Source of the DNA: Pseudomonadota bacterium
GTDB taxonomy: Bacteria; Pseudomonadota; Gammaproteobacteria; Steroidobacterales; Steroidobacteraceae
Direction of reading: 5' to 3'
Assembly: GCA_025351005.1 (NCBI GenBank)
Contig: JANXWS010000049.1
Location: forward strand, 1-64,000
DNA: 64,000 nt
This document shows, piece after piece, positions 29,562-41,342 of this stretch (positions are counted from its first letter, which is position 1; each line of letters starts with the position of its first letter). The notes beneath the pieces are model-generated. The model did no database searches. It had not been told where the DNA came from and was given only the letters and a program-made list of their open reading frames with translations. The position numbers and the translations under genes were made by a program.

Positions 29562-29939
29562 TCAGCCGCCGATGCTGAGCGCAGTGCGCGGAAACGCGTC
29601 GCTGTCGTCCTCGTCCGGCCGGCTCGTCAGGCACGGGAAATCCTTCTCGACCAGGATCTGGAGCGCGCCGCGACCGAGCGGCAGCTCGGCGTGCAACGCC
29701 ACGTCCGCCGACCGCGCCCAGCCGTCGACCGCCGCCTTCGGCACCGTGACGACGAGCGCACCCGCCGTCGAACGCGCAACGATCGCGGCCGCCGCCGCGT
29801 CGGCCTCGAGCTCGTAGCCAAGCACGGAACCATCCGGGAAATGCGTCGATTCCGCGACCCGGCCGCGGTCCACCAGTTCGCGGACCTCGCTGCGGGTCAG
29901 CCGCAGGCGAATCGAGTCACCCTTGATCCTGAGTTTCAT
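29562..29939 (-). CDS. Small uncharacterised protein (DUF7009-like) at the end of the formate dehydrogenase operon
   Basis: The 125-residue protein begins MKLRIKGDSIRLRLTRSEV and has a compact beta-rich middle (STHFPDGSVLGYELEA, ALVVTVPKAAVDGWA), ending with EKDFPCLTSRPDEDDSDAFP. It resembles a family I recall as DUF7009; not verified. No signal peptide, no membrane helix, one Cys in the tail (FPCLTSRP). It starts 22 bases after the fdhD stop on the same strand, so it is probably co-transcribed with the selenocysteine/formate dehydrogenase genes. Function unknown; position hints at formate dehydrogenase maturation or molybdenum/selenium handling. Confidence 0.7.
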   Translation of the reverse strand: MKLRIKGDSIRLRLTRSEVRELVDRGRVAESTHFPDGSVLGYELEADAAAAAIVARSTAGALVVTVPKAAVDGWARSADVALHAELPLGRGALQILVEKDFPCLTSRPDEDDSDAFPRTALSIGG

Positions 29940-29961
29940 AATGCCCCTCGTGGGCGCCCGG

Positions 29962-30807
29962 CTAGGGACGCATGCGCTCGCCGTTCGCGTAGATGACGTG
30001 CCGATCGGGTCGCGCAAACCCGACCAGCGTGACGCCGAACTGGCGTGCTGCGCGGATGGCGAATGCGGTCGGCGCAGACACCGCCACGACCGCCGCGATG
30101 CCGACGGTCGCCGCCTTCTGCACGATCTCGTAGCTCGCACGGCTGGTGACGATCGCATAGCCGCAGGCGAGATCCTCGCCGCCCCGCACCAGCGCGCCGA
30201 TCACCTTGTCGAGCGCGTTGTGCCGGCCGACATCCTCGCGGACCAGCACGACGCCGCGCGCCGGCACGACCCAGGCGGCGGCGTGAATGCTGCCGGTGCG
30301 CGCGTTGAGGGCCTGCCGCTCGGCGAGCGTGGCGAGCGCCGCCTGCAGCGCCCGTGACGACAGCTCGAGGCCCGGACCGAGCGCCGGCGGGGCGCGGATC
30401 GCGTCGGCGAGCGTCTCCGCGCCGCACATGCCGCAGCCCGTGCGGCCGGTCAGGTTGCGGTGGCGCTGCAGCAGCGACGCGAAGCGCTCCGGCGCGATAT
30501 CCAGGTGCACCTCGAGCGCGTCGTCGACGACCTGCACGCCGACCGAGCGGATCTCGTCGGGTGCGGCGACGATCGCCTCGCTGAGCGTGAAGCCGACGGC
30601 GAGGTCCTCGAGATCGGCGGGCGTCGCCAGCATCACGACGTGCGACACGCCGTGGTACCTGAAGGCGACGGCGCGCTCGTCGGCGACCTCGTCGCTGGCG
30701 TGCTCGACGACGCCCGCGCTCCAGCGCTCGACCTCGACCGGCACGACCGCCGGCGGCATGCCGGTGGTGCCGGTCTCGCCGCGCCAGGCGTTCGGGGACT
30801 TGCTCAC
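29962..30807 (-). CDS. fdhD: Formate dehydrogenase sulfurtransferase FdhD
   Basis: FdhD carries sulfur from a cysteine desulfurase to the molybdenum cofactor of formate dehydrogenase, without which the enzyme is inactive. The 281-residue product has RYHGVSHVVMLATPADLEDLA, VGFTLSEAIV, the reactive cysteine loop TGRTGCGMCGAETL, and RTGSIHAAAWV. Next come the nucleotide-binding-like VREDVGRHNALDKVIGAL and VTSRASYEIVQKAA. The start is GTG 30807, 9 bases after the selD stop. It is the penultimate gene of the operon, exactly where a maturation factor for the upstream FdnG would be useful. Confidence 0.94.
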   Translation of the reverse strand: MSKSPNAWRGETGTTGMPPAVVPVEVERWSAGVVEHASDEVADERAVAFRYHGVSHVVMLATPADLEDLAVGFTLSEAIVAAPDEIRSVGVQVVDDALEVHLDIAPERFASLLQRHRNLTGRTGCGMCGAETLADAIRAPPALGPGLELSSRALQAALATLAERQALNARTGSIHAAAWVVPARGVVLVREDVGRHNALDKVIGALVRGGEDLACGYAIVTSRASYEIVQKAATVGIAAVVAVSAPTAFAIRAARQFGVTLVGFARPDRHVIYANGERMRP

Positions 30808-30816
30808 GGCGCGATG

Positions 30817-31875
30817 CTACGCGACCGCGACCGTCGCTGTCCCGGCCGCGAGCCTGCCGATGACCGCGGCCTCGCTGCCGCCGTGGCGCCGGAACTCCGT
30901 GAGCACGCCGTCGACCGCGTCCGGCGCGCAGCTGACGAGCAGCCCGCCCGACGTCTGCGGGTCGGTCAGCAGCGCGCGCCGCGGCGCATCGATGCCGGGA
31001 CCGAGACGGACGGCCGGGCCGTAGGAGTCCCAGTTGCGGGCCGACGCGCCGGTCACACAGCCCTCCGCGGCGAGCCGCATCACGCCCGGCAGCACCGGCA
31101 GCGCCTCGTCGCTGAGCGTCGCGCAGAGGCCCGAACCGCGGCACATGCCGAGCAGGTGGCCGAGCAGCCCGAAGCCGGTGACGTCGGTGAGGCCGTGGAC
31201 GCCGGGCAGGCGCGCGAGGCCGGGTCCGGCCAGGTTGAGGCGCGTGGTCGTATCGATCAGCGTCCGGTAGCCGGCCGCGTCGAGCGCGCCGCTCTTCAGC
31301 GCCGCCGACAGGATGCCGACGCCGAGCGCCTTGCCGAGCACCAACCGGTCACCGGCCTGCGCGTCGCAGTTCCGCTTCAGGTCGCGCGGCGCGACCAGTC
31401 CGACGACCACCAGCCCGTAGATCGGCTCGACCGAGTCGATCGAGTGGCCGCCGGCGACCGGGATGCCGGCGGCGGCGCACACCGACTCGCCGCCGCCCAG
31501 GATCTCGCGGATCACCGACGGCGGCAGGACCTTGAGCGGCATGCCGACGATCGCCAGCGCAAACAGCGGCGCGCCGCCCATCGCATAGACGTCCGAGAGC
31601 GCGTTGCAGGCGGCGATGCGCCCGAAGTCGAACGGATCGTCGACGATCGGCATGAAGAAGTCGGTCGTCGCCACGATCGCCTGAGTGTCGTTCAGCTGAT
31701 AGACCGCCGCGTCGTCGCCGGTCTCGCGCCCGACCAGCAGCGCTGCCGGAACCGACGAGGGCAGGCTGTCCCGCAGGAGCTCGGCGAGCACGGCGGGCGC
31801 GATCTTGCAGCCGCAGCCGCCGCCGTGCGAGAGCGACGTCAGGCGCGGAACTGGATCGAGCGGCAGCGTTGGCAC
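30817..31875 (-). CDS. selD: Selenide, water dikinase SelD
   Basis: SelD makes selenophosphate from selenide and ATP, the selenium donor for Sec-tRNA. The 352-residue protein has the glycine-rich N-terminal loop SLSHGGGCGCKIAP with the catalytic Cys (a Cys-form, not a Sec-form, enzyme). It also has a lysine (GCKI), VYQLNDTQAIVATTDFFMP, the metal aspartates (NALSDVYAMGG), GGHSIDS and LTDVTGFGLLGH. The start is GTG 31875, 16 bases after the tRNA-Sec. A longer open frame upstream runs through the tRNA and is not real. It lies within the operon between selC and fdhD. Confidence 0.94.
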   Translation of the reverse strand: MPTLPLDPVPRLTSLSHGGGCGCKIAPAVLAELLRDSLPSSVPAALLVGRETGDDAAVYQLNDTQAIVATTDFFMPIVDDPFDFGRIAACNALSDVYAMGGAPLFALAIVGMPLKVLPPSVIREILGGGESVCAAAGIPVAGGHSIDSVEPIYGLVVVGLVAPRDLKRNCDAQAGDRLVLGKALGVGILSAALKSGALDAAGYRTLIDTTTRLNLAGPGLARLPGVHGLTDVTGFGLLGHLLGMCRGSGLCATLSDEALPVLPGVMRLAAEGCVTGASARNWDSYGPAVRLGPGIDAPRRALLTDPQTSGGLLVSCAPDAVDGVLTEFRRHGGSEAAVIGRLAAGTATVAVA

Positions 31876-31891
31876 GGCCGGGCCCCGGGTG

Positions 31892-31987
31892 TGGCGGAAG
31901 GCAGCAGGAGTCGAACCTACCAAGAAGCGGCTGACGCCCCCTGCTGGGGTTGAAGCCCAGCCGCATCGCCGGATGCGTATGCCTTCC
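31892..31987 (-). tRNA. selC: tRNA-Sec (UCA anticodon), selC
   Basis: The 96-base gene, encoded CCA included, folds as a bacterial selenocysteine tRNA. It has an 8-bp acceptor stem (GGAAGGCA/TGCCTTCC) with G73, and a 6-bp D stem with a 4-base loop (CGCATC-CGGC-GATGCG). The 5-bp anticodon stem has loop CTTCAAC and anticodon TCA at 31951-31953. A long variable arm (about 8 bp with several G-U pairs) precedes a 5-bp T stem with TTCGACT. The 8+5 acceptor/T arrangement and long D stem set it apart from tRNA-Ser. It sits 18 bases after selB and 16 before selD on the same strand, so it is probably cut out of the operon mRNA. Confidence 0.96.
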
Positions 31988-32005
31988 AGTCGCGCCGATC
32001 GTAGC

Positions 32006-33919
32006 CTATCGCGAACCGCGCCAGCCACTGCCCGGCCGCAGCACGTGGCGTTCGCCCAGCCGGCGCGTGTAGCCGACACGGTCGAAGAACTCAAGGATCT
32101 GGATCGCCCGCTTGCGCCCTACGCCGAGCCGGTCGCGGAACCGCGCGGCCGTCGCGCCCTCTGCCTCCGTCGCCAGCGACGCGACGATCGCCGCGAGCTC
32201 GTCGACCACCTCGCGCGCGTAGTAGAGGTCGGGAACGACTGCGCAGACGCGCCCTTCCCGGCCGACGGCGGCGAGCACCTGCCGGACGCGCGCTTCGGGC
32301 TCGCCGCTGCTGCGCCCGAGCTCGCGCACCCACGGCGGATCGAGACGACCCGCAGCGCAGAGCGGCAGCAGCTTGTCGATGAGCTCGCGGTCGCGCGCGT
32401 TCAGCTCCAGGGCGTGCGCGGGCAGCTGCAGCCAGGCGCCCGCGCGCCGGATCCGGCCGGACGCCACCAGTTCCTCGACAAGCGCCCGCCACAAGCGCTC
32501 GGGCGCGAGCGGCGCGACGATGCGACGCAGCCGTGCGACGTCCGGTCCCGGTTCCGCCGGGTGCGCGGCGTGGAAGGCCGCGAGCGCCGCGAGTGCGGCG
32601 TCCGCTGCGCACCGCCAGTGCACCTCCGCCACCAGGAACTCGTCGTCGTCGGCGCCCGTGCGAATGCGCCGCGTACCGTCCGGCAGAGTCAATGCCGCGA
32701 GCGGCGCCGCAGTTGCAAGCCTGAGCTCCGCCCGGCTCAGGCCCCACGGTGCCACCGCGAGCAGCGGCGCCGCGTCGGCGCGCTCGAGCGCCTGCTCGAG
32801 GGCCGCGAGCCATGCGCGCCGCGCGGCACTGCGCCGGCGACGGGCCGGCGCACGCGGATCGAGCAGCACGCCGCCGCCGATCGTGCGCCGGGCGGATGCG
32901 TCGCGGACGATGAACCGCTCGCCGGGCGCGCCGCAGACCGGACGGTCGAAGACGAGCTGGGCGTGTGCCGACTCACCCGGGACGAGCCGCTCGCCCGCGA
33001 GCGGCAGCAGGTGTGCGGTCGCGTGTGCCGCGCCGAAATGCACGTGCACCGGTGCATAGCCGCCGAGCGGTTCCGGCTCGCTTCCGAGGAGCGTGAAGCG
33101 CGCGTCGATGCGGATCGTCGGCAGCAAGGTGCCCGGGACCGCGAGCCAGTCGCCGCGGCGGATCGCGGCCGGCTCGATGCCGGCGAGGTTGAGCGCGCAA
33201 CGTTCGCCGGCGCAACCCGCATCCGCGACCCGGTTCTGGCTGCGGATGCCGCGCACACGCACCGCGACCCCGGCGGGCAGCAGCTCGAGCGTGGCGCCGG
33301 TCTCGACCCGCCCGGCGAAGGCGGTGCCGGTAACGACGGTGCCGTGGCCGGCAAGCGTGAACGCCCGGTCGACCGCGAGCCGGAACAGCCCGTCCGCGCG
33401 CCGCGCCGGGAGTCCGGTCGCCGCGGCGCGGAGCAGGCGGGCGAGCCTGGCGACGCCCGGGTCGGCCGGGTCCGTCCCGTTGACCGCGACCAGCGGCGCA
33501 CCGGCCAGGCGGGTCGGCGCGAGCAGCAGCCGGACCTCGTGCTCGACCTCAGCCTGGCGCGCGTGGTCGGTGCGATCCGCTTTCGAGAGGGCCACCGCGC
33601 CGCACGCGACGCCGAGCAGGTCGAGGATCGCGACGTGCTCGCGCGTCTGCGGCATCACGCCGTCGTCGACGGCGACCACGAGCAGCGCGAAGTCGATGCC
33701 GCAGGCGCCGGCCAGCATCGTGTGCACCAGCCGCTCGTGGCCGGGCACGTCGATGAAACCGAGCGTGGCCCCGTCGTCCGCCGGCGCGTAGGCGTAACCC
33801 AGCTCGATCGAGATGCCGCGCGCCTTCTCCTCGGCGAGCCGGTCGGTGTCGACGCCGGTGAGCGCGCGCACCAGCGTCGTCTTGCCGTGGTCGATGTGAC
33901 CCGCGGTGCCGACGATCAT
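32006..33919 (-). CDS. selB: Selenocysteine-specific elongation factor SelB
   Basis: SelB is the EF-Tu-like GTPase that brings Sec-tRNA to UGA codons by binding the SECIS hairpin. The 637-residue protein begins MIVGTAGHIDHGKTTLVRAL (G1), then ISIELGYAYAP (switch region), FIDVPGHERLVHTMLAGA (G3) and ALSKADRTD (G4). Domains II-III follow to about 350. C-terminal winged helices run from about 430 to the end (for example RFRDRLGVGRKRAIQILEFFDRVGYTRR), which bind the mRNA hairpin. ATG 33919 overlaps the selA stop (ATGA); the longer open frame upstream is inside selA. Client: the UGA of fdnG in the same operon. Confidence 0.95.
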   Translation of the reverse strand: MIVGTAGHIDHGKTTLVRALTGVDTDRLAEEKARGISIELGYAYAPADDGATLGFIDVPGHERLVHTMLAGACGIDFALLVVAVDDGVMPQTREHVAILDLLGVACGAVALSKADRTDHARQAEVEHEVRLLLAPTRLAGAPLVAVNGTDPADPGVARLARLLRAAATGLPARRADGLFRLAVDRAFTLAGHGTVVTGTAFAGRVETGATLELLPAGVAVRVRGIRSQNRVADAGCAGERCALNLAGIEPAAIRRGDWLAVPGTLLPTIRIDARFTLLGSEPEPLGGYAPVHVHFGAAHATAHLLPLAGERLVPGESAHAQLVFDRPVCGAPGERFIVRDASARRTIGGGVLLDPRAPARRRRSAARRAWLAALEQALERADAAPLLAVAPWGLSRAELRLATAAPLAALTLPDGTRRIRTGADDDEFLVAEVHWRCAADAALAALAAFHAAHPAEPGPDVARLRRIVAPLAPERLWRALVEELVASGRIRRAGAWLQLPAHALELNARDRELIDKLLPLCAAGRLDPPWVRELGRSSGEPEARVRQVLAAVGREGRVCAVVPDLYYAREVVDELAAIVASLATEAEGATAARFRDRLGVGRKRAIQILEFFDRVGYTRRLGERHVLRPGSGWRGSR

Positions 33920-35340
33920 GCGTGCCGGCGGCCGAGCTCCGCGAGCAGCGCCGCCTCGTCGTCCGCGGCGAGGCAACGCAGGTCCAGCCACAGCGCGTCG
34001 TCCGCAACCCGGCCGATGACCGGCCGCTCGAGCGCGCGCAGCGAGCCGTTGAGCGGCTCGATGCCCGCGGGCCGTGCGCCCGCGGCACGGCGCACCGCGA
34101 GGCCTGCGCTCGGCAGCGTCGCGCCCGGCTGCGCGCCGCTGCCAATCTGGCTCTCGAGCGGTTCCGGCGTGACGAGGTAGCCGCACCCGAGCACCGCTGC
34201 CACCGCCGGCGCGAGCCGGGTCGCCTGCTCCCAGATCGCGGCGCGCGGCCGGGTCAGCAGCGCGAGCGTCGTCAGCCGCTCCGGCAGTCGCTCGGGGGCA
34301 CGGTACAGCGCGAGCACGGCCTCGAGCGCGGCGATGGTCAACTTGCCCACGCGCAGCGCTCGCTTGAGCGGGTCGCGGTCGAGACGCGCGACGAGCGCAC
34401 GCCGGCCGACGATTAGTCCGGCCTGCGGACCGCCGAGCAGCTTGTCGCCGCTGAACGTCACGAGGTCGGCGCCGGCGGCAACGACGTCACCGACGACCGG
34501 CTCCGCCGGCAGCCCGTAGCGCCGCAGATCGACGAGCGCGCCGCTGCCGAGGTCGACGGCAAACGGCACGCCCCGCTCCCGGGCGAGCGCCGCGACCTCG
34601 GCCGTGGCGACCTCGGCCGTGAAGCCGCGGATCACGTAGTTGCTGGGGTGGACGCGCAGCAGCAGCGCCGTCCGCGGACCGATGGCCTGCTGGTAGTCGG
34701 CCAGGTGCGTGCGGTTGGTCGTGCCTACCTCGACGAGGCGCGCGCCGGCCGCGCGCATGATGTCGGGCAGCCGGAACGAGCCGCCGATCTCGATCAGCTC
34801 GCCGCGCGACACGACCACCTCGCGGCGCGCCGCGAGCGCGTGCAGCACGAGCACGAGCGCCGCTGCGTTGTTGTTCACGACCGTCGCTGCCTCGGCGCCG
34901 GTGAGCTCGGCGAGGGCACGCGCCGCCGCCCGGTCGCGCTCGCCGCGCCGGCCGGTGTCGAGGTCGAATTCCAGGTTGACGGGCGAACGCATGGCGGTCA
35001 GCACCGCCGCGACCGCCGCCTCCGGCAGCGGCGCGCGGCCGAAGTTCGTGTGCAGCACCGTGCCGGTCAGGTTGAAGAGCGCACGCAGCCGTGGGCGGCT
35101 GGCGGCCGCCACCCGTGCGGCAATGGCGGCCCCTAGCGCCGCGGGCTCGAGCGTCGCGGGCGCGAGCCGCCCGGCGAGCGCCGCGGCGCGCAGCGCCTCC
35201 AGATGCGAGCGCGCGGCATCCAGCACCAGCGTGTGGCCCTCGCCGGCGGCGAGCGCCGCGACCGGCTCGAGCCGGAGCAGCCGGTCCACCGAGGGCAGCT
35301 GCCCGGGCCGCACGGCATCCCGCACCGGCCGCGCGCCCAT
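33916..35340 (-). CDS. selA: L-seryl-tRNA(Sec) selenium transferase SelA
   Basis: SelA converts Ser-tRNA(Sec) to Sec-tRNA(Sec) using selenophosphate; it is a large PLP-dependent ring complex. The 474-residue protein has the N-terminal tRNA-binding helices (QLPSVDRLLR), FNLTGTVLHTNFGRAPLP, NNNAAALVLVL, ELIEIGGSFRLPDIM, and DLGSGALVDL. The PLP lysine lies in DLVTFSGDKLLGGPQAGLIVG. It starts 3 bases after the fdhE stop and overlaps selB by 4. Length is close to the E. coli enzyme (463). Full and intact. Confidence 0.95.
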   Translation of the reverse strand: MGARPVRDAVRPGQLPSVDRLLRLEPVAALAAGEGHTLVLDAARSHLEALRAAALAGRLAPATLEPAALGAAIAARVAAASRPRLRALFNLTGTVLHTNFGRAPLPEAAVAAVLTAMRSPVNLEFDLDTGRRGERDRAAARALAELTGAEAATVVNNNAAALVLVLHALAARREVVVSRGELIEIGGSFRLPDIMRAAGARLVEVGTTNRTHLADYQQAIGPRTALLLRVHPSNYVIRGFTAEVATAEVAALARERGVPFAVDLGSGALVDLRRYGLPAEPVVGDVVAAGADLVTFSGDKLLGGPQAGLIVGRRALVARLDRDPLKRALRVGKLTIAALEAVLALYRAPERLPERLTTLALLTRPRAAIWEQATRLAPAVAAVLGCGYLVTPEPLESQIGSGAQPGATLPSAGLAVRRAAGARPAGIEPLNGSLRALERPVIGRVADDALWLDLRCLAADDEAALLAELGRRHA

Positions 35341-35343
35341 GCC

Positions 35344-36261
35344 TCAGCCGGCCGGCTGCCAGAGGAGCGGGTGCGCGCTGGCGCGCTGGTAGCCGGCTGC
35401 GGCAAGCAGCAGGTCGAGCGCCATGCTGGCGAGATCGTCCGCGACCGCCTCGACGCCGTCGTCATGCTCCTGGTAGAAGATCTTGCGATAGCAGCGGCAG
35501 CGCTCGCAGGTCTCGGCGCGAATCGCCGCCGGTCCGCCCTCGATCGACTGGTAGCTGATGCCGTCGGTTGCGCCGCACTGCGTGCACTCGACCCGCACGC
35601 GGTGCCACTCGCTGGCGCAGAGCCCGCACTGCAGGTAGCGATAGCCGGCGTAGGGCGCGTGACTTCGGACGATGCTCGCGAGCGGCAGCATGCCGCAGAC
35701 CGGGCAGACGGCGGCCGCCGCGTCGAGCGGCACGTCCCCGAGCGCGCGGCCCGAGGCGAGCACGACCCAGTACACCTGCAGCGCGGCAATCACGAACGGC
35801 GCGGCCGCGGGTTCGGCATCGCGGCCATCGGCCGCGAGCAGGCGCTCGGCGCGGGCCTCGAGAAGCGCCACCGGCTCGGCGCCGAGCAGCAGCCCGGCGC
35901 GCGCGACCGGCGCCGGGAACCGGCCGCCGCCGAGCGCGGCCAGGATCGCCGCGAGCGCGTCGCGCCACTCCGCCCCACGTCGCAGCCCGCGCGCCGGCAG
36001 GATCGGCATGCCGTGGGCGCGCGCCGCGGCCTGCACGCCGGGTTCCGGCGCGCCCGGCGCGAGCCCCGCCGCCGCGTCGTGCTGCGCGCGCGCGAGCGCG
36101 GCGGCGAAGGTCAGGTAGCCGCCGAGCGGGTCGCGGGATGCGAGGGCCTCGAGCCGCGTCGCGCGTGCGGCAAACACGCGCTCGCGCGCCGGCAGCACCA
36201 GGCGGGGTACCGAGCGCGACGCGAGCGCTTCGATCTGTCCGGGCTCGAGAATTCTCTGCAC
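35344..36261 (-). CDS. fdhE: Formate dehydrogenase accessory protein FdhE
   Basis: FdhE is a cytoplasmic iron-binding protein needed to activate membrane formate dehydrogenases, acting on the catalytic subunit before Tat export. The 305-residue product has the expected rubredoxin-like cysteine pairs: CPVCGMLP, CGLCASEWH, CTQCGATDG and CERCRCYRK, in the C-terminal half. YLTFAAALARAQHDAA in the N-terminal half is typical of the helical domain. It starts at GTG 36261, 69 bases after fdnI, and leads directly into selA. Conventional gene; placement between structural genes and selA supports one maturation operon. Confidence 0.9.
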   Translation of the reverse strand: MQRILEPGQIEALASRSVPRLVLPARERVFAARATRLEALASRDPLGGYLTFAAALARAQHDAAAGLAPGAPEPGVQAAARAHGMPILPARGLRRGAEWRDALAAILAALGGGRFPAPVARAGLLLGAEPVALLEARAERLLAADGRDAEPAAAPFVIAALQVYWVVLASGRALGDVPLDAAAAVCPVCGMLPLASIVRSHAPYAGYRYLQCGLCASEWHRVRVECTQCGATDGISYQSIEGGPAAIRAETCERCRCYRKIFYQEHDDGVEAVADDLASMALDLLLAAAGYQRASAHPLLWQPAG

Positions 36262-36330
36262 GACGCGTCACCGCCGACGCGCACGGGAGGTGCGCCGGAC
36301 GAGTATAGCGCCGGGACCCCGCGCCGCCGG

Positions 36331-36978
36331 CTAGCGTCCCGAGGACGGCCGGGTCATCTCGCGAAACCAGGCGCGGTGGTGCTTGTAGGCCCAGCCGAGC
36401 GTCACGGTGCCGAGCGTCATGGCGCGGATGGAGCCCTTGACCCAAACGGCGGCCGCGACGTGCACGATCGTCGCGAATACCAGCACGAACGCCGCGAGCG
36501 CATGCACGACCGCGGCGAAGCGCACGACGCCGACTGCGAAGAAGCCGGAGAAGTAGCGACGCCAGAGCAGCAGGCCCGACAGCAGCAGCAACGCGACGCA
36601 GGCGACCGTGGCGATGTACAGGACTTTCTGACCGGCGTTGTACTTGCCGGCCTCCGGAAGGCGCTCGTCGCGGTTGTCGACGACGTCGCGCAGCCGGTCG
36701 AGCCAGATGCGGTCGCCCGCCGTCAGCCGGTTCAGCTCCCACAGCGGCAGCGCGAACAGGCCGAATGCCAGCGCCATCGCGAGGCCGACGAACGGGTGCA
36801 GCAGCGCGCTCCACGGGCCGCCGCCGAGCAGGTTGGTCAGGAAGAACAGCGCCGGATGGAACAGCGCGAGGCCGGACGCCGCGGCGAACACGAACGCGAC
36901 GGCGACCAGCCAGTGCAGCAGGCGCTCCCGGGTGGCGTGCCGCGGCAACAGGTCGGGGGCCGGGATACGGTCAGCCAT
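36331..36978 (-). CDS. fdnI: Formate dehydrogenase cytochrome b556 (gamma) subunit
   Basis: This 215-residue inner-membrane subunit carries two b-type hemes and passes electrons from the beta subunit to quinone. It has four transmembrane helices (about 20-45, 60-80, 118-140 and 152-178). Histidines for the hemes are visible: [32 protein letters not shown] and VHVAAAVW. The ending [24 protein letters not shown] is typical of FdnI/FdoI. ATG 36978 overlaps the fdnH end by 8 bases, so the subunits are coupled. FdnI and FdoI cannot be separated by eye. Confidence 0.93.
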
Positions 36979-37876
36979 CGGTGCGCTCCTTGGCGCGCTC
37001 GGCGGCGCGCTCGTCGTCGGCGTCGGCCTCCTTCGGACCGACGCGGACGTAGTTCAGCCAGCCGGCGAGTGCCGCGACCAGCAGGCCGCCGAGCGCGAGC
37101 GGCTTGGCCGCACCCTTCCACAGCCGCACCATCGCGCTGACGTGCGGCCGTTCCGGCAGCCCGTTGTAGAGCCCCGGCTGGTCGGCGTGGTGCAGCACGT
37201 ACATCACGTGCGTGCCGCCGACGCCCGCCGGGTCGTACAGGCCCGCGTTCTCGAAGCCGCGCGACTTCAGGTCGACAACCCGCTCGGCGGCGTCGTGCTG
37301 CATCTGCTGTTTAGTGCCGAAGGTGATCGCGCCGGTAGGGCAGGTCTTGACGCAGGCGGGTTCGAGGCCGACCGCAACGCGGTCCGAGCACAGCGTGCAC
37401 TTGTACGCCTTGTTGTCCTTCTTCGAGATGCGCGGCACGTCGAACGGGCAGCCGGCGATGCAGTAGCCGCAGCCGATGCAGTGCTCCTCGTGAAAATCGA
37501 CGATGCCGTTCGCGTACTGCACGATCGCGCCCGGTGACGGGCACGCCTTCAGGCAGCCCGGGTCCGCGCAGTGCATGCAGCCGTCCTTGCGGATCAGCCA
37601 CTCGAGGTCGCCCTTCGGGTTCTCGTACTCGGCGAAGCGCATCACCGTCCACGACTCGGCGGTCAGGTCGCGCGGGTTGTCATAGGTGCCGTTGCAGTCG
37701 CCGACCTCGTCGCGCAGGTCGTTCCACTCCATGCAGGCGGTCTGGCAGGCCTTGCAGCCGATGCACTTCGTGGTGTCGATCAGCTTGGCGAGTTCGACGG
37801 TGGCCTCGGCCCGGACGCCCGGTGGGCTCGTCGTGGTCGCGGAGCGCTGCTTGATGTCCAGTGATTGCAGTGCCAT
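36971..37876 (-). CDS. fdnH: Formate dehydrogenase iron-sulfur (beta) subunit
   Basis: The 301-residue electron-transfer subunit holds four [4Fe-4S] clusters. Cysteine motifs are [42 protein letters not shown] and CTLCSDRV, with [10 protein letters not shown] completing the set. A single C-terminal membrane helix (about 262-282, [19 protein letters not shown]) anchors it, as in FdnH/FdoH. It starts 10 bases after the fdnG stop. It has no signal peptide of its own and would be exported through Tat together with the alpha subunit. The acidic, basic tail after the helix ([14 protein letters not shown]) is ordinary. Confidence 0.95.
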
Positions 37877-37886
37877 GGCGCCGCCC

Positions 37887-40800
37887 CTAGATCCGCTCGA
37901 CCTTGACCAGGAAGGCTTTGAATTCCGGCGTCTGGGAGTTGGCGTCGCCGACGACCGGCGTCAGCGTGTTGGCGAGGAAGCCGGGCTTCGCGACGCCCTT
38001 GAAACCCCAGTGGATCGGAATGCCGACGGTGTGCACGGTCTTGCCCTCGATCGTCATCGGCTTGATCCGCTTCGTGACCACCGCGACCGCCTTGATGAAG
38101 CCGCGGTTCGAGCTGACGCGCACGCGGTCGCCGGCCTTGACGCCGAGGTCCTTGGCGAGCACTTCGCCGATCTCGACGAACTGCTCCGGCTGCATGACCG
38201 CGTTCAGGCGCACGTGCTTGGTCCAGTAGTGAAAGTGCTCGGTCAGCCGGTAGGTGGTCGCGACGTGCGGGAACGCGTCGACCTTGCCGAGCGCCTCGCG
38301 GTCGCGCTTGAAGATGCGGGCGGCCGGATTCTGCGTCGAACGCGGTTCCTTCGGGTGCAGTGGGTTGTAACCGAGCGGCGACTCGAAGGGCTCGTAGTGC
38401 TCCGGGAACGGTCCCTCGGCCATGCCGCCGCGGGCGAAGAAACGCGCCACGCCCTCGGGGTTCATGATGAACGGCCCCATGCCGCCGGCCGGGTCCTCGT
38501 CGGCCTTGAAGTCCGGCACGTCGACGCCGCCCCAGGCCTTGCCGTTCCATGACACCAGCGAGCGCGCGGGATTGAAGGGCTTGCCGGCCGGGTCACAGGA
38601 CGCGCGGTTGTACATGACGCGCCGGTTGGCGGGCCAGGACCACGCCCAGTTGCGGCTTTGACCGATCCCGGTGGGATCGGAGTTGTCGCGCCGCGCCATC
38701 AGGTTGCCGGCCTCGGTCCAGGCACCGCAGTAGATCCAGCAGCCGCTCGAAGTCGAGCCGTCTTCGCGCAGCTCGCCGAAGCCCGCGAGCTGCTCGCCCG
38801 CCTTGCGGAGCACCTTGGTCGGGTCCTTCGGATCGAACACGTCGGCAAGCGCCTTGCCGTTGTACTCCCGCGCGAGCTCCTCCGGGGTCGGCTCGGCCGG
38901 ACGCGCGTACGGCCACGACAGCTTGACGACCGGCTCCGGGACGGCGCCGCCGTCCGTTTCGTACAGGCGCCGGATCCGCGTGTAGAGGCCCGCCATGATC
39001 GAGATGTCGCTCTTCGACTCACCGGGTGGCTCGACACCCTTCCAGTGCCACTGCAGCCAGCGCGCCGAGCTCACCATGGCGCCGTCTTCCTCGGCGAAGC
39101 AGGTGGTCGGCAGCCGGAACACCTCGGTCTCGATCAGCGCCGCATCGACGTCGTTGTGCTCGCCGAAGTTGCGCCAGAATTCGGAGGTCTCGGTCGCCAG
39201 CGGGTCCATGATGACCAGGAACTTGAGCTTGCTGAGGGCGGCCGTCATCTGCGCCTTGTTCGGCGCCGCGGCGAGCGGGTTGAAGCCCTGGCAGAGGTAG
39301 CCGTTGACCTTGCCTTCGGTCATCATCTCAAAGGTCTGCAGCATGTCGTAGGACTTGTCGAGCTTCGGCAGGTAGTCGTAGCCCCAGTGATTGTCGGCTG
39401 TCGCCGCGGCCCCCCACCACGACTTCATCAGGCTGACGAAGAACCTGTTGTAGTTCTGCCAGTAGCTCATCTGGTTGGGGCGCAGCGGCTTCAGCGCCCG
39501 CGCCGCAATGTAGGCGGCGTAGTCCTGTTCCGCCTGGCTCGGCAGCGTCATGTAGCCGGGCAGCAGGTTCGACAGCAGCCCCAGGTCCGTCAGGCCCTGG
39601 ATGTTCGAGTGGCCCCGCAGCGCGTTCATGCCGCCGCCGGCGACGCCGATGTTACCTAGCAGCAGCTGCACCATGGCGCCCGTGCGAATCATCTGCGAGC
39701 CGACCGAGTGCTGGGTCCAGCCGAGCGCGTACATGATGGTCGCCGCGCGCGTCGGTGTCGACGTCGAGGCCAGCAGCTTGCAGACCTCGAGGAACTTGTC
39801 CTGCGGGGAGCCGCACGCGCTCGCGACCATGTCCGGCGTGTAGCGCGCGTAGTGCTGCTTCATCAGGTTGAAGACGGTACGCGGGTGCTGGAGCGTCGGG
39901 TCGCTCTTGACGAAACCGTCCGGCCCGCGCTCGTAGTCCCACGTGCTGCGGTCGTACTTGTGCTTGTCGGCGTCGTAGCCGGAGTACAGGCCGTCCGCGA
40001 ACGCGTAATCCTCGCGAACGATGAAGCTCAGGTCGGTGTAGTTGTTGACGTACTCGTGCTGGATCGCATCGTTCGACAGCAGGTAGTTGATGACGCCGCC
40101 CAGGAACACGATGTCGGTGCCAGGCCGGATCGGCACGTACAGGTCGGCGACCGACGCCGAGCGCGTGAAGCGCGGGTCAACGACGATCAGCCGCGCCTTG
40201 TTATGCGCCTTGGCCTCGACCACCCACTTGAAGCCGCACGGATGGGCTTCCGCGGCATTGCCACCCATGATGAGGACGACGTCGGCATTCTTGATGTCGA
40301 CCCAGTGATTCGTCATCGCTCCACGGCCAAACGTCGGGGCAAGACCTGCCACCGTCGGGCCGTGTCACACACGGGCCTGATTGTCGAAAGACAGGACGCC
40401 GAGGCTGCGCATCACCTTGTGGGTGATGTAGCCGGTCTCGTTGCTGCTCGCCGACGCCGCCAGCATGCCGGTCGTCAGCCAGCGGTTGACCGTCAGCCCG
40501 TCGGCGGTCTTGGCGACGAAGTTCTGGTCGCGGTCCTTCTTCATCAGGCCCGCAATCTTGTCGAACGCCTCATCCCAGCTGATCCGCTGCCACTCGGCGG
40601 AGCGTGGCGCGCGGTACTCGGGGTACTGCAGGCGGCTGTCGCTGTGCAGGAAGTCGATCAGGCTCGCGCCCTTCGGGCAGAGCGTGCCCCGATTGACCGG
40701 GTGGTCCGGATCGCCCTCGATATGGAAGATCGCGCTCTTGGCGTTCTTGGCCCGGTCGCCGGTGCCGTACATCAGCACGCCGCAGGCGACCGAGCAGTAT

Positions 40801-40955
40801 GGACAGGTGTTACGGGTCTCGGTGGCCCGCGCCAGCTTGAATTGTCGTACCTCGGCCAGCGCCGTCTCGGGAGTGAATCCGAGCAGGACGAGGCTGGATC
40901 CCGCCAGCGACGCCCCGGTGAATTTCAGGAATTCACGTCTGGTGACTTCCGCCAT
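37887..40955 (-). CDS. fdnG: Selenocysteine-containing formate dehydrogenase catalytic (alpha) subunit, in-frame UGA at 40365-40367
   Basis: The full-length protein is 1022 residues if the TGA at codon 197 is read as selenocysteine, matching E. coli FdnG (Sec196). The first part has a twin-arginine signal ([10 protein letters not shown] to ALA), the [4Fe-4S] motif CPYCSVACG and [11 protein letters not shown], and ends FDNQARV-UGA. The frame continues [20 protein letters not shown] without break, the same residues as in E. coli. Downstream come molybdopterin motifs such as [32 protein letters not shown] and the C-terminal [13 protein letters not shown]. It oxidises formate to CO2 in the periplasm. 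The chosen start, ATG 40955, has a GGGGGG-type ribosome site. Annotation pipelines would split it into two genes. Confidence 0.97.
40336..40367 (-). promoter_or_regulatory. Sec codon (TGA) and bacterial SECIS element of fdnG
   Basis: The TGA lies at 40365-40367. Eleven bases downstream the mRNA forms a hairpin (40336-40353): GG, a bulged U, GGCA, apical loop GGUCU, UGCC, CC. This matches the E. coli fdhF/fdnG SECIS, including the bulged U and the GGUCU loop that SelB recognises. The selB and selC genes needed to read it are in the same operon. Confidence 0.93.
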
Positions 40956-41188
40956 GACACCCCCCTGCCGAGAAGACCGGGACCTCGTGAGTGTAGGCCG
41001 GGCGGCGACGGGGGAGCAAGCAACGGGCTGCAGCGCCAGGCGTGCTGACCACACCGTCGGCGGCGGGGTCGGTCGGGGCGGTCGCGGCCATCAGCCGGAC
41101 GGCGGCAGCCTCGTCGGACGCAAACGCGCCGCGGCCGGGTACTGCGCTGGCGTTCCGGGCACCTCGGACGACGCTTGAGATTCGGAAT

Positions 41189-41265
41189 TGGTGGCTAGGG
41201 GGAGACTCGAACTCCCGACCCCGGGGTTATGAATCCCGTGCTCTAACCGGCTGAGCTACCTAGCC
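41189..41265 (-). tRNA. tRNA-Met (CAU anticodon, elongator type)
   Basis: The 77-base gene with encoded CCA has acceptor stem GGCTAGG/CCTAGCC plus A73, a D arm with GCTCAGCCGGTTAGAGC, loop TTCATAA with anticodon CAT (41229-41231), and T arm GGGAG-TTCGAGT-CTCCC. The paired 1-72 G-C and the A-type D loop make it elongator rather than initiator; a tRNA-Ile with modified C34 cannot be fully excluded. It lies upstream of fdnG on the same strand. The gap 40956-41188 is GC-rich and presumably holds the fdnG promoter, but no convincing one was seen. Confidence 0.93.
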
Positions 41266-41342
41266 ACGCGTGGCCGCCAGCGGCGGCCAGCTGGACGGAC
41301 GCGGATTCTGTGCACCGCGGCGCGGCGCGTCAAGGCACGCCG

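Follow-up and report, generated by a model that had tools for sequence, protein, structure and literature searches.

At positions 29562-40955 of the window, meaning the whole 64,000-nucleotide stretch of Steroidobacteraceae DNA analysed here, we found a minus-strand run of ten genes in the order fdnG(Sec)-fdnH-fdnI-fdhE-selA-selB-selC-selD-fdhD-DUF7009, each at its expected place (Table 1). Read from fdnG to DUF7009, the intergenic gaps measure 10, -8, 69, 3, -4, 18, 16, 9 and 22 bases. FdnG, FdnH, FdnI, FdhE, SelA, SelB, SelD and FdhD all score above their curated NCBIfam cut-offs, the TIGR01553 (fdnG) and TIGR00476 (selD) scores being those of translations read from an upstream start. These protein family and RNA matches, together with intergenic distances between -8 and 69 bases, bear out two claims of the original prediction: that ten closely spaced genes share one strand, and that they include a complete selenocysteine (Sec) system with a formate dehydrogenase (FDH) as its client.

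Table 1. Features of the locus and its flank, with the evidence for each assignment (bit scores are given against the cut-off).
Feature	Position	Strand	Evidence
tRNA-Met, far flank of the proposed insertion site	41189..41265	-	ARAGORN; nearness to fdhD in five relatives
tRNA-Met/fdnG intergenic region (233 bp), promoter-like word CTACACT ahead of fdnG	40956..41188	-	word weak across all four carriers
fdnG, Sec-containing formate dehydrogenase-N alpha subunit, 1022 residues, Sec at 197	37887..40955	-	TIGR01553 1472.4 vs 814.2; in-frame TGA
SECIS element over the UGA	40312..40370	-	RF01989 (SECIS_3) 82.2 vs 63
fdnH, FDH beta (iron-sulfur) subunit	36971..37876	-	TIGR01582 442.3 vs 334.7
fdnI, FDH gamma (cytochrome b) subunit	36331..36978	-	TIGR01583 171.7 vs 115.85
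fdnI-fdhE gap with word GGCGCTATACT, candidate internal promoter	36262..36330	-	11-mer common to 4/4 genus carriers
fdhE, FDH accessory protein	35344..36261	-	TIGR01562 247.3 vs 187.65
selA, selenocysteine synthase	33916..35340	-	TIGR00474 564.6 vs 267.9
selB, Sec-specific elongation factor	32006..33919	-	TIGR00475 398.7 vs 242.25
selB-selC gap with word GGCTACGAT, candidate selC promoter	31988..32005	-	9-mer common to the 3 carriers whose gap was compared
selC, tRNA-Sec (UCA)	31892..31987	-	ARAGORN; Rfam RF01852 66.5 vs 47
selD, selenophosphate synthetase, Cys form	30817..31875	-	TIGR00476 415.2 vs 125; N-terminal motif
fdhD, FDH sulfurtransferase; resident, outside the eight-gene block	29962..30807	-	TIGR00129 200.6 vs 140.9; genus distribution
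DUF7009 gene, small, last in the row; resident neighbour of fdhD	29562..29939	-	PF22668 105.6 vs 27

Codon 197 of fdnG is an in-frame TGA (40367-40365) in the context NQARV-U-HGPTV, and selA, selB, selC and selD are all present alongside this SECIS-bearing gene, the full set that marks a bacterial Sec-decoding trait. Likewise, the three subunit genes above curated cut-offs and the Sec codon in the alpha subunit identify the enzyme, by sequence, as formate dehydrogenase N. SelD is of the Cys form and carries HGGGCGCK near its N terminus, which we take to be the active-site motif. SelD makes selenophosphate, and SelA turns Ser-tRNA-Sec into Sec-tRNA-Sec, which SelB would here carry to the UGA of fdnG by way of the SECIS element. 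FdhD and FdhE mature formate dehydrogenase, and FdnGHI hands formate electrons to quinone; the membrane complex predicted here would do the same.

The window belongs to a draft genome bin of 2.71 Mb in 90 contigs (G000; 85.8% complete), in which selA, selB, selD and TIGR01553 have one above-cut-off match apiece and further, weaker matches below the cut-offs; the search for second sel copies that the original prediction had proposed thus returned single ones. The selenouridine synthase gene (mnmH/ybbB) had no match in this 85.8% complete bin and none above cut-off in any of the 15 genus genomes, seven of which gave short weak matches. A second candidate tRNA-Sec on contig C78 (RF01852 48.3 bits, above the cut-off) was set aside, being a tRNA-Ser(TGA) according to ARAGORN. 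As far as the families searched in the draft bin go, formate dehydrogenase is the sole Sec client.

Two gaps within the run hold words conserved among the genus carriers, the 11-mer GGCGCTATACT before fdhE and the 9-mer GGCTACGAT before selC, and neither length was reached in any of 2000 sets of randomised gaps, which follow first-order base statistics and take no account of common descent. The word before fdnG is weaker: the longest one common to all four carriers has 7 bases, a length reached by 107 of 2000 randomised sets, and 12 bases are common only when G001 is omitted. A sigma-70 consensus scan gave two promoter-like sites (41333-41305 and 39761-39733), both of them away from the conserved words, and terminator-like sites within the run were no more frequent than in shuffled sequence. 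Among 25 loci hand-picked from 87, with the genus carrier G010 included, CTANNNT stands before fdnG in 13 of 24 loci (4.5 expected), before fdhE in 7 of 25 (1.8 expected), before selC in 5 of 25 (1.3 expected) and before selD in 2 of 17 (0.5 expected); by these counts most other genera do not show the words before fdhE and selC. Given the conserved promoter-like words at these two places, it is uncertain that the run forms one operon. Judged from these motifs, fdhE-selAB and selC-selD(-fdhD) may be transcribable apart from fdnGHI.

Within the genus, whose genomes are draft bins, fdnG (TIGR01553) and selD score above cut-off in the identical 4 of 15 genomes, and neither does so in the other 11. 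By contrast with this patchy block, fdhD is found in all 15 genomes, block present or absent, and DUF7009 adjoins it in 12 of them, the window counted. We scanned the genus loci with ARAGORN, introns allowed and some long false tRNAs disregarded, and found that five of the 15 (G004, G005, G008, G010 and G012) have only about 100-280 bp between tRNA-Met and fdhD. The same interval spans 10.4 kb in the window, where eight genes occupy it, and it is also longer in G006 and G014. The carrier G010 has the block and fdhD on different contigs (C14 and C6), G001 has no fdhD match within 15 kb after selD, and altogether the block lies in at least three neighbourhoods among the four carriers. The remaining 14 genus genomes have a probable NAD-type formate dehydrogenase, of which no counterpart was found in the window lineage. 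The selD stop codon opens a TAGCAT word, and four relatives have a similar word upstream of fdhD.

Outside the genus, the link of DUF7009 with formate dehydrogenase is thin. Order-wide matches fell in 142 of 296 genomes, and among the 30 best loci (2.3-3.4 kb each) none has fdhD beside DUF7009, and two have fdsG- and fdsB-like genes after it. A Pfam scan of the neighbours at four of the DUF7009 loci returned fdsG/fdsB-like genes at one (L137) and unrelated genes at the others (L122, L125 and L127). The name DUF7009 turned up no paper in the literature collection searched.

In both operon trees the genus carriers form one clade with support 1.000, four of them in the FdnGHI tree and three in the FdhE-SelA-SelB-SelD tree. 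Inside the clade, a concatenation of seven operon proteins joins the window to G010, and the pairing G001+G010 is rejected (AU p = 0.005); housekeeping proteins in turn reject window+G010+G012 (p = 1e-10 with seven genes, 0.023 with five). All of these housekeeping genes lie around the insertion site, and the tree they give therefore does not stand for a species tree drawn from whole genomes. Support for the conflict is uneven. For FdnGHI combined the housekeeping order falls just short of rejection (p = 0.053). The single-gene topology tests covered selA, selB, selD and fdnG; selA, fdnG and selD do not reject the housekeeping order, and selB rejects it (0.007) yet favours window+G001. The window and G010 are 81% identical in FdnGHI and 67% identical in the sel set; their housekeeping proteins are 83% identical when five genes are used and 75% when seven are, and these values do not point to a recent event.

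We consider it probable that the eight genes from fdnG to selD (30817-40955, 10.1 kb), comprising the Sec-decoding factors and one client, are a cassette that was placed as a block between tRNA-Met and a resident fdhD-DUF7009 pair. That the four carriers have it in at least three different places suggests movement as a block, and the cassette may have travelled as one segment and crossed from species to species within the genus. The resident FdhD would now mature the Sec formate dehydrogenase. The universal presence of fdhD, the short tRNA-Met/fdhD interval in five genomes, the differing neighbourhoods and the tree conflict together make fdhD and DUF7009 look resident, and older at the site than the arrival of the block. 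The earlier claim of a portable unit therefore holds for the eight genes, given their differing neighbourhoods, the short sister interval and the tree conflict, and fails for fdhD and the small gene, as fdhD occurs in every genus genome.

The strongest alternative is vertical inheritance from the genus ancestor, with loss in most members, ordinary rearrangement and no transfer between species. It would account for the single clade of carriers in the operon trees and for the similar window-G010 identities of FdnGHI and the five housekeeping proteins, but we regard it as unlikely: it requires several simultaneous losses of eight genes as well as no fewer than two relocations, and the operon and housekeeping data sets reject one another's topology. 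That all ten genes form one operon and one portable unit is very improbable, for although only 9 and 22 bases follow selD and fdhD and the strand is common to all, fdhD occurs regardless of the block, DUF7009 sits beside it in most genus genomes, and only one of 87 loci has an fdhD match near the block, on the opposite strand. Least probable is an assembly or binning artefact, which the fragmented, incomplete draft bin might invite and which the gene-by-gene agreement of both flanks with genus genomes, the clustering of the block with genus copies and the even GC content contradict.

The cassette reading can also be set against the usual marks of mobile DNA. An adjacent tRNA gene, here tRNA-Met 233 bp before fdnG, is one mark of tRNA-integrated genomic islands. 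No integrase or transposase was found among 20 predicted neighbours scanned, no 9-mer is common to the junction regions 41151-41300 and 30651-30950, and GC content shows no compositional break (0.718 vs 0.706 and 0.714). Terminal repeats and foreign composition are therefore unsupported as marks of transfer by the junction and GC comparisons.

We put forward more tentatively, as somewhat doubtful, that the cassette is self-sufficient, turning selenium-free species of the genus into users of a Sec-dependent respiratory FDH in one step, with the host supplying only FdhD. In the window lineage, in which the NAD-type enzyme was not found, it would have landed directly before fdhD, with the selD stop opening TAGCAT. 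Within the genus, carriers can be compared with sisters whose corresponding site has no block, a small natural experiment in which the seeming traveller (eight genes) can be told apart from the host contribution (FdhD) and which lends itself to the question of what a genome must have to acquire the 21st amino acid in one step.

Clusters of this type are well described, and the arrangement has been known before from related bacteria. The contiguity that the original prediction held to be unusual is not so: 41 of the 80 nearest named SelA loci have the same order from fdnG to selD, and two papers report such clusters (PMC1794560, 2006; PMC5029168, 2016). There, Alpha-, Beta- and Gammaproteobacteria are described with selA-selB-selC and an adjoining Sec-FDH gene as the sole selenoprotein, with the key genes, selD among them, near each other or in single operons, and horizontal transfer of the Sec gene set is inferred (PMC1794560; PMC5029168). 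Relative to the selABC(D)-FDH clusters of those papers, what we add is the mapping of the resident fdhD-DUF7009 pair and of the short block-free sister interval, which are details and not a new kind of cluster. Clusters of Achromobacter, Bordetella, Luteimonas, Lysobacter, Stenotrophomonas and Rudaea have the identical eight-gene order, with about 1.8 kb of extra DNA before selD in many Achromobacter clusters and 3.2 kb before fdhE in Rudaea; unlike the window, the named eight-gene clusters have no fdhD match after selD in the stretches compared. In Sinorhizobium meliloti 1021 the megaplasmid pSymA, a replicon typed as conjugative, carries matches to fdnG, fdnH, fdnI, fdhE, selA and selB in the same order, and tRNA-Sec and selD are also found within 19 kb; the differences are that tRNA-Sec follows the selB match at a distance of about 4.6 kb and that selD has the opposite orientation.

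The window carries a genuine and complete selenocysteine cluster, in which fdnG, fdnH, fdnI, fdhE, selA, selB, selC, selD, fdhD and a DUF7009 gene are separated, from fdnG onward, by 10, -8, 69, 3, -4, 18, 16, 9 and 22 bases. FdnG, FdnH, FdnI, FdhE, SelA, SelB, SelD and FdhD each exceeded their curated NCBIfam cut-off, tRNA-Sec (selC) was called by both ARAGORN and Rfam, and SelD is the cysteine form; NCBIfam, Pfam, Rfam and ARAGORN together showed the gene content and coordinates of the original prediction to be correct. Duplicates of selA, selB and selD were sought in the window's assembly (2.71 Mb, 90 contigs, 85.8% complete), which gave one above-cut-off match for each, as for the FdnG family profile TIGR01553, in keeping with the predicted single set. 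tRNA 2-selenouridine synthase had no match in this assembly and exceeded its cut-off in 0 of the 15 genus genomes. Formate dehydrogenase is, as far as tested, the single selenocysteine client, a statement confined to the selenoprotein families tested because the genome-wide search took in only those. A second above-cut-off tRNA-Sec-like match in the assembly was a tRNA-Ser and not a second tRNA-Sec.

Mapped features of the selenocysteine cluster in the window
Feature	Position	Strand	Remark
Ten-gene run, fdnG to DUF7009 gene	40955-29562	minus	
FdnG in-frame UGA	40367-40365	minus	codon 197; beneath Rfam SECIS_3 match, 82.2 bits
DUF7009 gene	29562-29939	minus	Pfam; last gene of run

The original prediction had placed fdhD and the small gene within one portable unit, a boundary that comparison within the genus appears to shift: fdhD is present in all 15 genomes, window included, and fdnG and selD, the ends of the block, in four. 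TIGR01553 and selD exceeded their cut-offs in the same 4/15 genomes (the window's own G000, plus G001, G010 and G012), and three of these carriers also gave selA, the exception being G012, which is 83% complete and whose fdn contig stops inside fdhE. In the window the eight genes fill a 10.4-kb interval between tRNA-Met and fdhD. The corresponding distance to the fdhD match is about 100 to 280 bp in G004, G005, G008, G010 and G012, which share the window's PKD-domain gene, YchF and Pth past tRNA-Met, and 3.9 to 13.5 kb, without block matches, in G006, G007, G011 and G014; the two genes do not occur together on the stretches compared in G001, G002, G003, G009 and G013. Because of these intervals, the universal fdhD and the DUF7009 gene that adjoins it in 12 of 15 genomes (window included; not G004, G005 or G008), fdhD and DUF7009 look resident and fdnG to selD added. 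The argument that the eight genes are one unit, inserted at the site mapped here, is a fair one. The selD stop TAG, 9 bases ahead of the fdhD GTG, begins a TAGCAT word that also stands upstream of fdhD in G004, G005, G010 and G012 and is absent in G008; it may be a junction mark or chance.

Over the ten genus genomes with both genes on one stretch (loci L198-L201 among them), the tRNA-Met-fdhD interval measures anywhere between about 0.1 and 13.5 kb, and the site may take up insertions readily. Upstream of fdhD, G014 (L201:14378-15526) and G009 (L205:9810-10958) encode 382-residue proteins with 100% identity, while the housekeeping tree sets the two genomes apart.

The block was also predicted to be able to move as a single unit. 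Outside the window it lies on contig C14 in G010, with fdhD on C6; in G012, some 3 kb away from genes that have matches about 8 kb from the block in G010; and in G001, in a further neighbourhood, as a copy divided between two contigs. In operon trees that added 23 named loci chosen by hand, all genus copies fell into a single clade (support 1.000 both for FdnGHI, with four carriers, and for FdhE-SelA-SelB-SelD, with three). The topology tests took three of the carriers, with seven outgroups; there, the concatenation of seven operon proteins favoured window+G010 (AU p 0.994) and rejected G001+G010 (0.005) and window+G001 (0.010). FdnGHI alone did not quite reject G001+G010 (p 0.053), and the sel set rejected it (p 0.0008) but did not reject window+G001 (0.11). 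Among single genes, selA (p 0.098), fdnG (0.24) and selD (0.53) did not reject G001+G010; selB did (p 0.007), preferring window+G001. Housekeeping proteins rejected window+G010+G012 with seven genes (p 1e-10; fdhD and the PKD protein included) and with five (0.023), in a tree distinct from a genome-wide species tree because every housekeeping gene neighbours the insertion site. This conflict between operon and housekeeping topologies speaks for the block having passed from one lineage to another. Any transfer would be old: window and G010 are 81% identical in FdnGHI and 67% in the sel set, and their housekeeping proteins 83% over five genes and 75% over seven. Loss in some lineages combined with relocation, instead of transfer, is possible. 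No integrase or transposase was found among the 20 neighbours scanned, no 9-mer is common to both junction regions, and GC is level across block and flanks, without a compositional break.

Within the block, the fdnI-fdhE gap holds a word common to 4/4 carriers, GGCGCTATACT, and the selB-selC gap one common to the three carriers with the gap covered, GGCTACGAT; shared words of equal length arose in 0/2000 randomised sets in each case, sets that ignore common descent, by which relatives share words. The remainder of both gaps looks, by eye, to have diverged. Ahead of fdnG, CTACACT is common to three carriers with one change in G001, and the word shared by all four is weak, its length being reached in 107/2000 randomised sets. 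A simple sigma-70 scan detected none of the words before fdnG, fdhE and selC. We infer that they are candidate -10 elements, and on that reading fdhE-selAB and selC-selD(-fdhD) might be transcribed separately from fdnGHI.

The other 14 genus genomes have a second alpha protein resembling that of formate dehydrogenase, which stays below the cut-off of TIGR01553 (partial in G012); it had no match in the 85.8% complete window assembly, where it was either lost or falls in the absent part of the bin. Since fdsG- and fdsB-like genes lie near it in all four genomes examined (G004, G010, G011, G013), this enzyme is probably NAD-type; of the two queries, fdsG passes its cut-off as formate dehydrogenase subunit gamma, and fdsB hits the NuoF family without reaching cut-offs. 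G123, another member of the order, has DUF7009 immediately ahead of such genes and a weak fdhD match farther along. DUF7009 directly precedes fdsG-/fdsB-like genes in 2 of the best 30 order-level loci (L137, L131) and adjoins fdhD in 12 of 15 genus genomes, a thin hint that the family might serve formate dehydrogenase. No paper in the collection searched names DUF7009.

The contiguity of the genes, originally thought unusual, proved common among near relatives. Searching genome contigs for SelA gave 120 confirmed places. The best 80, all named loci, thus sample near SelA relatives, not Sec-using bacteria at large; together with seven stretches from five further relatives they made up 87 loci, in which tblastn and ARAGORN were used to compare gene order. 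The order fdnG-fdnH-fdnI-fdhE-selA-selB-selC-selD on one strand recurred in 42 of the 87 loci (41 of the 80 named loci, the best of 120), and 12 more of the 87 kept it to selC with selD not next, loci interrupted by contig ends being scored as misses. By hit edges, 19 of the 80 combined a selC-selD gap below 150 bases with an fdnI-fdhE gap of at most 417. In loci L023 and L024, from order-level relatives G055 and G041, the selA-selB-selC set is far more distant, at 34-47% identity. No fdnG match was found in these stretches; the client may be another gene or located elsewhere.

Clusters of this type have already been described, and the window adds a member. PMC1794560 (2006) describes similar selA-selB-selC operons in Sec-decoding Alpha-, Beta- and Pseudomonadales bacteria, next to fdhA as the sole selenoprotein gene of each, and infers horizontal transfer. 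According to PMC5029168 (2016), most donors and recipients have their key genes, selD included, and their one selenoprotein gene in single operons or very near each other. PMC1273633 (2005), on a smaller set, has selD seldom adjoining selA-selB, nearer to the original prediction. On pSymA, typed as conjugative, fdnGHI, fdhE, selA and selB matches follow the same order, and a stretch of 19 kb also takes in tRNA-Sec and selD.
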